This document shows positions 7,747 through 39,396 of a stretch of DNA of 64,000 nucleotides, in pieces; the first letter of the stretch is position 1; every line of letters starts with the position of its first letter. The notes below the pieces were generated by a model. That model did no database searches. It worked only from the letters and a program-made list of their open reading frames with translations, and was not told where the DNA came from. A program made the translations under genes and the position numbers. Origin of the DNA: Paenarthrobacter nitroguajacolicus. GTDB lineage: Bacteria; Actinomycetota; Actinomycetes; Actinomycetales; Micrococcaceae. The DNA is taken from NCBI RefSeq assembly GCF_029952445.1, contig NZ_JAQPPK010000022.1:1-64000 (forward strand). The letters run 5' to 3'.

Positions 7747-7875
7747 GGAATCAACCGCATCGCGCATTCGCGGTCCTCGGTAGTGATTCCCGGGAGGTTC
7801 ATCGGTGACGATGAAGCCCGTGGATCTCGATCGATGACCGGGTGTAGTACAGGCCAGGAAAAAAGAAGAGGCCTG
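7747..7875 (+). promoter_or_regulatory. Structured 5' leader of pnp
   Basis: Two nested or adjacent helices can form: GGAATCA (7747-7753) with TGATTCC (7784-7790) enclosing ACCGC/GCGGT (7754-7758/7770-7774), and CAGGCC (7850-7855) with GGCCTG (7870-7875) around an A/G-rich loop. In E. coli the pnp leader hairpin is cut by RNase III and mediates PNPase autoregulation; a similar role here is inferred only from position and structure. Confidence 0.45.
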
Positions 7876-35761: not shown

Positions 35762-36730
35762 ATGGATGAAACCGCCTCAGTCCCCACCCGCCAGCCCTCG
35801 GCTGCCGGCGCCGCCGAACCCACCTCGAGCCTTGCCGGATTGGCGTTCTCCAAAGGGCACGGGACCGGCAATGACTTCGTCCTGATCGCGGATCCCGGCG
35901 ACGCCCACGAGATCACCGCCGAACAGGTAGCGCAATTGTGCGATCGCCACACGGGCATCGGCGGCGACGGCCTCATCCGTGCCGTTCCCTCACGCTTCCT
36001 CCCCGAAGGCCGGGCCCTGCTTGAACAGGATCCTGCTGCCGAATGGTTCATGGACTACCGCAACGGGGACGGCTCGTTGTCGGAGATGTGTGGCAATGGT
36101 GTCCGCGTCTTCGTCCACTTCCTCAACGAACAAGGGCTGGTGGACCTTGGACCTGGCCAGACCCTCACCATTGGTACACGCGGTGGCATCAAGAAGGTAG
36201 TCCGCACACTCAACGGTTATGCCGTGGACATGGGCCCGTGGGAGTTCATCTTCCCCGGGGAAGCCACCAGCAAAGCCATGGATGCCCTGGTCAGCGCCGA
36301 CGGCCTGGAAGTGGCCCGGCCGGGCCTCTCGGTCAGTATGGGCAACCCACACACCGTGGTCGCCCTGGCCGAACTCAGCGAGCTTTCAGCCACCCAGCTG
36401 TTCAAGGCCCCGGTAGTTGATCCCAAACCAGCCAACGGCACCAACGTTGAATTCGTCGTTCCCGCCGAACCCTTGGTGGAAGACGGCGTGGGCACCATCA
36501 CCATGCGCGTGCACGAACGGGGGGTAGGGGAGACCCAGTCCTGTGGTACAGGGGCCTGCGCAGCTGCCGTGGCAATCCGTCACTGGGCAGGCAGTACGGC
36601 CCCCAACGATTGGCACGTCAAGGTGCCGGGCGGCGTCGTCGGCGTGAAATTCTTCCCCGGTGCGGGCGGCCGCGAACACGTTGAGCTGAGCGGCCCGGCA
36701 GTCATCGTCGCTAACGGGACGCTTTCCTGA
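35762..36730 (+). CDS. dapF: Diaminopimelate epimerase
   Basis: DapF interconverts LL- and meso-diaminopimelate for lysine and peptidoglycan synthesis. The 322-residue protein has both catalytic cysteines: Cys110 in MCGNGVRVF and Cys261 in [13 protein letters not shown] non-conserved Ala/Ser/Thr-rich stretch of about 25 residues precedes [14 protein letters not shown]. Its 3' end overlaps the convergent methyltransferase gene by 20 bases. Confidence 0.97.
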
Positions 36731-37325
36731 CACGGATGATCCTGAAGGACTTCGAGGTGCTTTCGCGGGAGACGCTGAAGGAGTCGTCCAGCTCCGCGGC
36801 CAGCCACCGCTGCAGGGAATCCGAACCCAGGTTCTTCTGAACCACCAGCCAAGCGTTGCCACCTGGAGCCAATCGGGGCAGCCATGTCAGCAGCAGCGAG
36901 TGGAGTTCGTCCTTGCCGATCCGGATTGGCGGATTGGACCAGATGGTGTCGAACTCGACGGCGGGGTCCACCTCATCAGGGAGGCTGGCGGTCACGTTGT
37001 CCAAGCCAACGGCGGCCGCGTTCTCGTTGGTCAGGGTCACACAGCGTTCGTTGACATCGACGGCGTACACGCGGGCATGCGGGGCCATCAGGCCAAGGGT
37101 GAGCGCTATCGGACCCCAGCCGCAGCCGATGTCCAGCAGGTTCCCCCGGGGAGAGGGCGGCGGAACGTCCGAGAGCAGGATCGCGGTGCCCTTGTCCACG
37201 CCGTCGGGGCTGAAGATTCCTGAGGACGTCTGCAAGTGGCGTGTGGCCCCGGCAAGCTCCACCGTAAGTGGCTTGCGGGTGAACGGTCCGGCCGGCTGGG
37301 CGGTGAAATAGTGTGCAGACTCCAT
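36711..37325 (-). CDS. Class I SAM methyltransferase, RsmC-like
   Basis: A 204-residue protein with the SAM-binding [14 protein letters not shown] and the amino-methylating SNPPIR motif (N-P-P-x type), as in the catalytic half of RsmC/RlmG 2-methylguanosine methyltransferases. It lacks their N-terminal pseudo-domain. The substrate is probably rRNA but cannot be stated. On the minus strand TAATCT (37334-37339) ends 8 bases before the ATG at 37325, suggesting a leaderless or near-leaderless transcript. It overlaps dapF by 20 bases at the 3' ends. Confidence 0.85.
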
Positions 37326-37398
37326 AATTTGCCAGATTAGTTGGCTATCGTCGCCTTGGGAAACCGTCGAGGCCCAGAGCCTGGTTTGACACGGCTGG

Positions 37399-37404
37399 TA
37401 TCGT
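37399..37404 (+). promoter_or_regulatory. -10 hexamer of a possible leader-peptide transcript
   Basis: TATCGT is followed by 7 bases and ATG 37412, the same geometry as the other leaderless genes here. A TTGACA lies at 37386-37391 but is too close to serve as its -35. Confidence 0.4.
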
Positions 37405-37411
37405 TGAGGTC

Positions 37412-37432
37412 ATGTTCTTGATCTTTGAGTAA
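37412..37432 (+). CDS. Possible six-codon leader peptide (MFLIFE) upstream of hflX
   Basis: ATG TTC TTG ATC TTT GAG TAA begins 7 bases after a TATCGT hexamer. A hairpin with a perfect 8-bp stem, ACGCCTGG (37445-37452) and CCAGGCGT (37456-37463), starts 12 bases after the stop. A translated short ORF followed by a hairpin in front of a ribosome-rescue GTPase resembles known attenuation leaders, but no U-tract follows the stem. It may be chance. Confidence 0.3.
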   Translation: MFLIFE

Positions 37433-37800
37433 TCGGCCGAACCTACGCCTGGACCCCAGGCGTTCCACGGCACCGCCCGCGATGCAGGCCCGGCTTGGCA
37501 CACCCGCCCAGCACGAGGCCTTTCCGCCCGGCAGGTCCCACCGGCACATGTCAGCGCCGCCCGTGGCGATTGACGCTCAGAAGATCAAGCCCCAGCCATG
37601 AATCCAGGATCGTGTCATCATGCGAATCCTGATGGGGCGTCGCCATGACTTCCGACAGGCCAGGACCTCCCCGCGGATCCACCCGCCAGAGCACAGACGC
37701 CACAGCCAGCAGGCCAACGTCGTCCAGTACACAGGAGGCCACATTGGCCCAAGCCCGTCAGCCCAGCGCGAAGAGCGCCCCATCGAGCAACAAACAGCAC

Positions 37801-37806
37801 TATTCT
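37801..37806 (+). promoter_or_regulatory. -10 hexamer proximal to hflX
   Basis: TATTCT would start transcription about 21 bases before the hflX ATG. No good -35 is visible. Confidence 0.5.
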
Positions 37807-37833
37807 GGAATTGCCGAACAGTCTAAGGAGACC

Positions 37834-39396
37834 ATGACCACCCAGAAGCACTCCGGATCCGATTCCGACGCCCAGGACATGAGTCCTGAACAAATCCAGG
37901 CCGTCATCGACCGGATACTTTCCAAGGATGTCCCTGCGCAGGCATCCGATGACAATGACGCCAACGGCGTGTTCGGCAAGGCACAGGCTATTTCAACCCT
38001 GGACCAAGAGCACAGCATCTACGACGGCGACCAGGAAGACCTGGCCGAGCGTCGCGCCCTGCGCCGGACCGCGGGATTGTCCACCGAACTTGAAGACGTC
38101 ACAGAGGTTGAATACCGCCAGCTGCGCCTGGAACGGGTCGTCCTGGCCGGCCTCTGGACAGAAGGTACCCTCGCCGACGCCGAGAACTCCCTGCGGGAAT
38201 TGGCCGCGCTTGCCGAGACCGCGGGTTCGGAAGTTCTGGACGGCCTGGTCCAGCGTCGCACGAAGCCGGACCCGGGAACGTTCCTCGGATCAGGCAAGGC
38301 CCAGGAGCTCAAGGACATCGTGGCCGCCACAGGTGCGGATACCGTCGTGGTGGACACAGAACTGGCTCCATCGCAGCGACGCGGCCTTGAAGACATTGTG
38401 AAGGTCAAGGTCGTTGACCGGACCACGCTCATCCTGGACATCTTCGCCCAGCATGCCAAGAGCCGTGAGGGCAAGGCCCAGGTCGAACTCGCCCAGTTGG
38501 AGTACCTGCTTCCGCGTCTGCGTGGTTGGGGTGACTCCATGTCACGCCAGGCCGGTGGCCAGGTGGGTGGGGCCGGCGCAGGCATGGGCTCGCGAGGTCC
38601 CGGTGAAACCAAGATCGAACTGGACCGCCGCCGGATCCGCACGCGCATGGCCAAACTGCGCCGTGAGATCGCCGCGATGAAGCCGGCCCGCGAGACCAAG
38701 CGGGCCAACCGCCGTCGTAATGCTGTTCCGTCTGTGGCGATTGCCGGGTACACCAACGCCGGAAAGTCGTCGCTCCTGAACCGCCTCACCGATGCTGGAG
38801 TCCTGGTGGAGAACGCACTGTTCGCCACGTTGGACCCCACTGTCCGCAAGGCGCAAACCCCCGACGGTATTGGCTACACGTTGGCCGACACCGTGGGATT
38901 TGTGCGCTCCCTGCCTACACAGTTGGTAGAGGCTTTCCGGTCGACGCTGGAAGAAGTGGCCGACGCCGACCTTATCCTGCACGTCGTTGACGCTTCGCAC
39001 CCTGACCCCGAAGGCCAGATCGCCGCAGTCCGTGCTGTCTTTACGGAGGTGGATGCCCGCAAGGTTCCCGAGATCATTGTCCTGAACAAGGTTGATGTAG
39101 CGGATCCCTTCGTGGTGGAGCGCCTCAAGCAGAAGGAACCGCGGCACGCAGTGGTTTCCACCCGAACGGGCCAGGGAATTGCCGAGCTGCTCGAGGACAT
39201 CAGCCGGTCCATCCCGCGCCCCGGCGTGCGGCTTGAGCTGCTGATTCCTTATGAACGCGGCGAATTGATCAGCAAACTGCACAGCTCCGATTCTGAGATC
39301 CTCAGCATCGATCACGAGGAAAACGGCACACGCGTAGTGGTCATGGTCCGTGAAGGACTGGCAGCCGAACTGGAGTCATTCGTCAGCAATGGTTGA
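37834..39396 (+). CDS. hflX: Ribosome-associated GTPase HflX
   Basis: HflX splits stalled or hibernating 70S ribosomes and in some bacteria contributes to macrolide/lincosamide tolerance. The 520-residue protein has an acidic N-terminal extension of about 110 residues, the HflX domain (ending QAGGQVGGAGAGMGSRGPGETK, the glycine-rich loop), and a G domain with GYTNAGKSSLLN, the DTVGFV switch II motif, and NKVD. AAGGAG lies 5 bases before ATG 37834. The 8-base overlap with the dinG-like gene implies cotranscription. Confidence 0.96.
   Translation: MTTQKHSGSDSDAQDMSPEQIQAVIDRILSKDVPAQASDDNDANGVFGKAQAISTLDQEHSIYDGDQEDLAERRALRRTAGLSTELEDVTEVEYRQLRLERVVLAGLWTEGTLADAENSLRELAALAETAGSEVLDGLVQRRTKPDPGTFLGSGKAQELKDIVAATGADTVVVDTELAPSQRRGLEDIVKVKVVDRTTLILDIFAQHAKSREGKAQVELAQLEYLLPRLRGWGDSMSRQAGGQVGGAGAGMGSRGPGETKIELDRRRIRTRMAKLRREIAAMKPARETKRANRRRNAVPSVAIAGYTNAGKSSLLNRLTDAGVLVENALFATLDPTVRKAQTPDGIGYTLADTVGFVRSLPTQLVEAFRSTLEEVADADLILHVVDASHPDPEGQIAAVRAVFTEVDARKVPEIIVLNKVDVADPFVVERLKQKEPRHAVVSTRTGQGIAELLEDISRSIPRPGVRLELLIPYERGELISKLHSSDSEILSIDHEENGTRVVVMVREGLAAELESFVSNG

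Follow-up and report, generated by a model that had tools for sequence, protein, structure and literature searches.

MsrDL (MYLIFM) is the leader peptide of streptococcal msrD. In the published account, ribosomes translating it under erythromycin or azithromycin stall at termination, and codon 6 then occupies the P site. Induction is lost when L3 or I4 is changed to alanine, there is a clash between F5 and release factors, and Y2 is the sole residue described as tolerating replacement. The M6A substitution strongly lowers induction, and a UAG stop codon weakened MsrDL (all PMC10314930). The erythromycin-resistance peptides, as described, have four to six residues, with leucine common among them (PMC2928234). 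In Listeria, the hflXr leader rli80 is reported to combine a 14-codon uORF that encodes an RLR motif with an intrinsic terminator, and hflXr responds to lincomycin (PMC6310831). In Mycobacterium abscessus and Streptomyces coelicolor, hflX is reported to be under the control of WhiB7/WblC (PMC10727445, PMC7157823), and its loss makes S. coelicolor fourfold more sensitive to erythromycin (PMC7157823).

The DNA considered here, referred to as the window, is a stretch of 64,000 nucleotides from Paenarthrobacter nitroguajacolicus. It contains hflX and, upstream of it, a mini-ORF (uORF) of six codons with its promoter element:

37396..37404, forward strand: extended -10 element TGGTATCGT (TGnTANNNT); TGn-TANNNT lies 5' of the uORF in 88/88 parsed same-genus loci
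37412..37432, forward strand: leaderless uORF ATGTTCTTGATCTTTGAGTAA, peptide MFLIFE, defined by the sequence and by same-genus conservation

The TATCGT hexamer at 37399-37404 is followed by 7 nt and by ATG TTC TTG ATC TTT GAG TAA at 37412-37432, exactly as the sequence-only reading of this DNA had described. The general pattern TANNNT-N7-ATG-(3 to 6 codons)-stop has a single match in the 64 kb when both strands are scanned. A scan gave no sigma-70 promoter match. TTGAC occurs 6-10 nt upstream of the -10 element in 29/88 genus loci; it was considered as a -35 element and rejected, the spacing being wrong for one.

The mini-ORF is real and strongly conserved. HflX was detected in all 121 same-genus genomes searched; the hflX leaders of 90 were fetched (31 were not), and each of these 90 has a mini-ORF at the equivalent place. 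Eighty-eight loci were parsed by script, and the remaining two, L033 (MFLIFE) and L081 (MILIFQ), were checked separately. In 87/88 parsed loci, exactly 7 nt separate TANNNT and ATG. The peptide is exactly MFLIFE in 68/88, with 21 nucleotide variants and 11 peptide variants overall; L3 is present in 87/88 and I4 in 71/88, the 17 peptides lacking I4 including 14 with Asn instead. The stop codon is UAG in 65 loci, UAA in 22 and UGA in one, the window having UAA. A near-exact form of the mini-ORF pattern was found once each in 17 of 24 same-genus genomes and in none of 271 genomes of other family genera, and the reversed pattern had 0 matches. Among the 80 named loci compared, the nearest relative by HflX is Paenarthrobacter nicotinovorans (98% identity). 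Thus, the ORF and hexamer, proposed from one sequence, are strongly present in close relatives (mini-ORF in 90/90, extended -10 element in 88/88), and promoter, spacing and peptide are all conserved at the level of the compared sequences.

The hflX gene itself appears to have two starts. The relevant features are as follows:

37744..39396, forward strand: hflX, ribosome-associated GTPase (TIGR03156, 435.9 bits, cut-off 216.75)
37733..37746, forward strand: AGGAGG (37733-37738) and TTG start (37744) of the long hflX form, in frame with 37834
37801..37806, forward strand: TATTCT, probable internal -10 element for the short hflX form, suggested by conservation and rare codons
37825..37836, forward strand: ribosome site AAGGAG with the ATG at 37834 that starts the short hflX form; AAGGAG..ATGAC is found in 88/90 fetched loci
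36711..37325, reverse strand: divergent gene for a small-domain methyltransferase (PF05175, 99.6 bits)

The gene-free stretch before hflX had been put at 400 bases; it is shorter, as hflX probably starts at TTG 37744, 311 nt past the mini-ORF. A long start placed four codons upstream of the conserved stretch RQPSA is found in 66/88 loci (ATG in 41, TTG in 24, GTG in one), and an SD-like sequence accompanies it in all 66 loci with that start context. By a looser test, an in-frame start with an SD exists in 77/88 loci, and the long frame is broken in 11. Paired SD-starts 87-108 nt apart also occur in 20/43 loci of other genera.

The second -10 sequence noted earlier, TATTCT at 37801, does behave like a promoter, but it sits inside the longer hflX ORF. 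It is kept in 87/88 genus loci (TATCCT in one), including all 11 with a broken long frame. Tyr-Ser is encoded at this position in 81 loci, and all 81 use TAT TCT, although both codons are rare in hflX (in 30 ORFs, 10 of the 178 Tyr codons are TAT and 22 of the 929 Ser codons are TCT). Because it is retained with rare codons and in broken-frame loci, TATTCT is probably an internal promoter for a short HflX, and its reading as mere codons was rejected on the same grounds. The element is not family-wide. Among the 100 other-genus loci, 62 had a short SD-ATG start and could be used for this check; TATTCT is present in nine, all from genera g2, g7 and g23.

The region between the uORF and hflX contains several predicted RNA elements:

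37417..37435, forward strand: 5' strand of helix P1, within and just past the uORF, from the minimum-energy fold and complementarity
37567..37589, forward strand: 3' strand of helix P1, including CTCAGAAGATCAAG, from the fold, complementarity and compensatory changes in relatives
37445..37463, forward strand: 8-bp hairpin ACGCCTGG-ACC-CCAGGCGT without a U-tract, from the window sequence and 12/15 nearest loci
37479..37527, forward strand: core element GCGATGCAGG ... CCTTTCCGC inside the region closed by P1, from the positions of GCGAYGCAG and CCTTnCCGC
37433..37732, forward strand: C-rich, G-poor leader without a U-tract terminator (C 0.40, G 0.27)

In the predicted folds, the key RNA element is the longer-range helix P1 between the uORF and a downstream strand, and not the 8-bp hairpin on which the earlier proposal had relied. 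The hairpin is there as described, a perfect 8-bp stem that begins 12 nt past the uORF stop and lacks a U-tract; but by eye three of the 15 nearest loci (L001-L015) lack it, namely L002, L010 and L014, while the other 12 have it. A role as a terminator was rejected on these two grounds, the lack of a U-tract and the absence from some near relatives.

The leader of the window folds well (z = -4.0), and its minimum-energy structure joins the uORF to CTCAGAAGATCAAG near 37576-37589; the partner strand of the uORF lies about 110-185 nt downstream. In the 88 genus loci, the predicted pairing of uORF bases 7-21 with positions beyond +90 involves on average 8.8 of 15 nt, vs 3.0 in shuffled sequences, and exceeds all 12 shuffles in 51/88. 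Compensatory changes are observed at the first base of codon 6. In the 47/88 loci with a recognisable consensus partner site, this base and its partner form G-C in 27 cases, G-U in eight and A-U in 12, with no A-C (Fisher 2.4e-6, not corrected for kinship). The uORF and its partner also co-vary in other genera, as in CTGTTCGC/GCGAACAG and TGTTCGTC/GACGAACA; there, the pairing is above all eight shuffles in 16/43 loci and not in the other 27. A generic complementarity score gives a weak signal, with 19/88 genus loci above all 40 shuffles, and by this score a locus's own uORF is better than that of the other class in 9/16 and 45/71 loci. RNAalifold did not recover P1 on alignment A1 and returned two other hairpins. 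This alignment contains 54 of 60 sequences, with L039, L041, L043, L044, L047 and L070 excluded by hand for unusual spacing, and the P1 partner strands are offset between its two sequence classes. The uORF overlaps one strand of the predicted helix, which a ribosome on the uORF would disrupt. In one sequence class, a possible second mini-ORF (MLII, MLIV, MLI) was spotted by eye behind TTGGAG, past the P1 partner (L032, L034 and similar loci).

How the leader would act on hflX is less visible. The excess of C over G in 37433-37732 is matched by only 0.08% of 2548 segments of 300 nt on both strands. Sites resembling a stem with a U-tract were found in 0/88 genus leaders, vs 4/88 in one shuffle of each, and a scan found no terminator-like site on the forward strand. 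The C-rich leader would suit Rho. Pairing that occludes the SD of the long hflX start is predicted, with partners that vary between clades. In genus g10, no more than 115-119 nt separate the uORF from the hflX start. The predicted partner of the uORF in L130 is the hflX SD and start themselves, at a distance of 115 nt, an arrangement like that of translation attenuation; the prediction is less clear in L267, and L263 is not above shuffles.

A regulator acting in trans was considered as well. WhiB7 was not recognised among the 27 WhiB proteins of 13 family genomes (the genome of the window and 12 from 11 genera), none of which has a C-terminal AT-hook, which we take to be the signature of WhiB7. 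One genome (G142) has a third, divergent WhiB-like protein with a basic tail, L334.

The best-supported interpretation of the locus, and the one already proposed from the single sequence, is a leader peptide with a cis-acting attenuator of hflX that senses the ribosome, with macrolide-type drugs as probable inducers. We give this reading a probability of roughly 0.62. It is favored because it accounts together for the strongly conserved mini-ORF, its pairing partner with compensatory changes, the MsrDL-like peptide, the ribosome-rescue function of the target, and the absence of a recognised WhiB7. Weighing against it are E6 in place of M6, the predominance of UAG stops, the 17 peptides lacking I4, the lack of a U-tract terminator, the weak generic pairing score, the failure of RNAalifold to recover P1, the 27 of 43 other-genus loci whose pairing does not exceed shuffles, the 57 other-genus loci without the strict mini-ORF, and the lack of one before the ABC-F-like genes of this genome.

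The mechanism that we infer would be the following. Transcription would begin with the A of the uORF start codon or with a base adjacent to it, and the leaderless AUG would take up a ribosome. Without the drug, the ribosome would complete the six codons and be gone by the time the distant partner strand emerges; pairing of the uORF with that strand would then form P1 and favor a weakly expressed long hflX message. With a macrolide, or another drug bound where the exit tunnel begins, the nascent MFLIF would stall the ribosome within the uORF, probably on its final codon or its stop, as in MsrDL. P1 could not form, and expression through the leader would rise, either at the level of transcription (e.g., via Rho on the C-rich leader) or at that of translation of the long form. 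The second promoter, TATTCT at 37801, together with the SD and ATG that follow it, would provide basal short HflX.

The range of the mini-ORF and the nature of its peptides can be assessed in other genera of the family. The hflX loci of 100 genomes from 30 other genera were scanned up to 1200 nt upstream. The pattern TANNNT-N(6-8)-ATG followed by a short ORF of 3-7 residues was found in 43/100 loci from 12/30 genera, vs 0/100 in a reverse-strand control; the strict mini-ORF is missing from the other 57, as it is from several of the named loci of Arthrobacter, Rothia and Kocuria. In a strict scan of 80 named loci, 19 of the 36 in L138-L173 matched, the positives including Pseudarthrobacter, Glutamicibacter, Nesterenkonia, Sinomonas, Micrococcus lylae and a Galactobacter MAG. 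None of the 44 in L174-L217 matched; by their titles, these belong to other groups save L178 (Arthrobacter) and L194 (Yaniella). One locus (L152) comes from a contig titled Vibrio cholerae that is probably mislabelled or contaminated, its hflX being 79% identical to that of the window. In genera without strict matches, longer uORFs or those with GTG or TTG starts yielded few candidates, in g12, g26, g27 and g28 only. In genus g14, an ORF of 200-208 codons lies between the uORF and hflX in 3/5 loci (L133, L266, L280), the protein from L280 matching models of GNAT acetyltransferases; of the other two, L271 carries a shortened version and one locus has none.

The peptides of other genera are alike inside each genus and vary between genera, examples being MTLFFV/MTLIFV, MFLLFV/MFLLFA, MWIFLR/MWIYLR, MLSFL/MLIFL, MLLFI, MRLFK and MTYLFFV. 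Among the 31 distinct ones, 28 have 4-6 residues. Polar mini-ORFs (MKNK, MKK, MANK, MWNK, MTNK) occupy the same place in genera g8 and g28 (L110, L111, L223, L228, L229), and a further peptide, MTYPYL, is counted among the polar ones.

This diversity is relevant to the most serious alternative, in which the attenuator senses general stress in early elongation, such as inhibitors of the peptidyl transferase center (e.g., lincosamides) or low levels of charged tRNA, and not macrolides via the peptide. The differences between genera and the polar examples MANK, MWNK, MKNK and MTYPYL are what it would predict, an ORF of six codons fits drugs that block the first bonds, and Listeria hflXr is reported to respond to lincomycin (PMC6310831). 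However, Leu or Ile occupies residue 3 in 19/31 distinct peptides, vs 9% expected from base composition, and 97 of the 133 positions after Met are hydrophobic; nor do the peptides contain a run of identical residues, the expected sign of tRNA sensing. We thus consider general-stress sensing unlikely, while still taking it seriously.

Another candidate is a structured RNA, either a riboswitch or a protein site, which would be built on GCGAYGCAGG...CCTTCCGC and control hflX, with the mini-ORF secondary. The core does rank with the best-conserved parts of alignment A1, and its pattern, under exact spacing rules, was found in 45/61 genus genomes; most of the places listed are hflX leaders, and at least five lie elsewhere. 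The window itself is missed by the pattern because of one extra T. What makes this explanation improbable is the distribution of the two elements: conservation of the uORF reaches further than that of the core, which was not seen in the other-genus leaders inspected, including those that carry mini-ORFs. A known RNA family at 37300-37900 was rejected as well, since Rfam gave no match there with E up to 5. The sole Rfam match above the gathering score in the window is an Actino-pnp RNA at 7769-7842 (57.6 bits).

The mini-ORF could also be a leaderless by-product of an alternative promoter, or mark a small RNA, with no translational regulation. The conservation of the promoter equals that of the ORF, as expected in such a case. 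The peptide, however, is kept in 68/88 loci through several synonymous variants, changes in codon 6 are compensated downstream, and similar short peptides of unrelated sequence occur in other genera, which leaves this explanation very little credence. Chance has a practically negligible probability: six-codon ORFs are common by themselves, but the conservation (90/90 same-genus loci; 43/100 other-genus loci vs 0/100 on the reverse strand) and the single match in the window refute it.

If the attenuator reading is correct, it explains the control of hflX in a large group of soil actinobacteria in which WhiB7 was not recognised. HflX rescues ribosomes and is linked to tolerance of macrolides and lincosamides; the mini-ORF may therefore switch on antibiotic tolerance where no WhiB7, the usual switch, was recognised. 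The family would also supply dozens of natural candidates for short arrest peptides in one gene context, suitable for testing sequence rules of stalling at termination, as well as a case of hflX in two forms, one of them from an internal promoter. Searches of the open PMC literature turned up no description of this leader.

A wider hypothesis, which we offer tentatively as possible rather than probable, is that these loci form a family-wide class of leaderless drug-sensing mini-genes of 3-7 codons. The Micrococcaceae, apparently without WhiB7, would have a switch built into hflX itself (in some g14 genomes also with an inserted ORF, one of them GNAT-matched). The peptides would have reached the MsrDL solution, stalling at termination, by descent or by convergence. 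A very short ORF with a partner at least 100 nt downstream would then work as a timer, only a stalled ribosome still being there when the partner appears.

Comparison with described systems places the locus closest to MsrDL. The Listeria and whiB7 leaders had been suggested as models for it, and neither is as close; a Listeria-type RLR motif and an intrinsic terminator are missing here. With Listeria hflXr/rli80 the locus shares a short uORF and, by prediction, an alternative RNA structure 5' of hflX; it differs in having six codons and no U-tract terminator (PMC6310831), and RLR is found neither in MFLIFE nor in any of the 11 genus peptide variants. Similarly, uORFC-6-1 is a structured uORF leader 5' of hflX, but it is described from Bacillales with an Arg-Leu-Arg peptide, whereas RLR is lacking here and Rfam gave no match at 37300-37900 (PMC8632094). 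The WhiB7/WblC systems would resemble the locus in that an actinobacterial hflX is induced by ribosome-targeting drugs and uORF attenuation is involved (PMC10727445, PMC7157823). In those systems, as reported, the attenuator is on whiB7, which acts on hflX in trans, whereas here it would be on hflX itself. MFLIFE, with six residues and L3, falls within the pattern of four to six residues with L or I at position 3 of the erythromycin-resistance peptides, whose drug acts at termination; they were selected for resistance in E. coli, whereas MFLIFE belongs to a conserved leader (PMC2928234).

Judged by sequence, the closest known peptide is MsrDL. The differences from the published system are E6 instead of M6, the prevalence of UAG in relatives, the leaderless and not SD-led uORF, hflX downstream instead of an ABC-F gene, and the lack of an intrinsic terminator (PMC10314930). 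Upstream of the three ABC-F-like genes of this genome, no similar mini-ORF was found. The window peptide has the L3 and I4 that are essential in MsrDL, as well as F5, and lacks the combination of M6 with UAA, residue 6 being E. At the same time, both leaders encode hexapeptides of the form M-aromatic-L-I-F, with L3, I4 and F5 identical, the stop codon in the window is UAA, and both precede a gene for a resistance factor that acts on the ribosome (PMC10314930).
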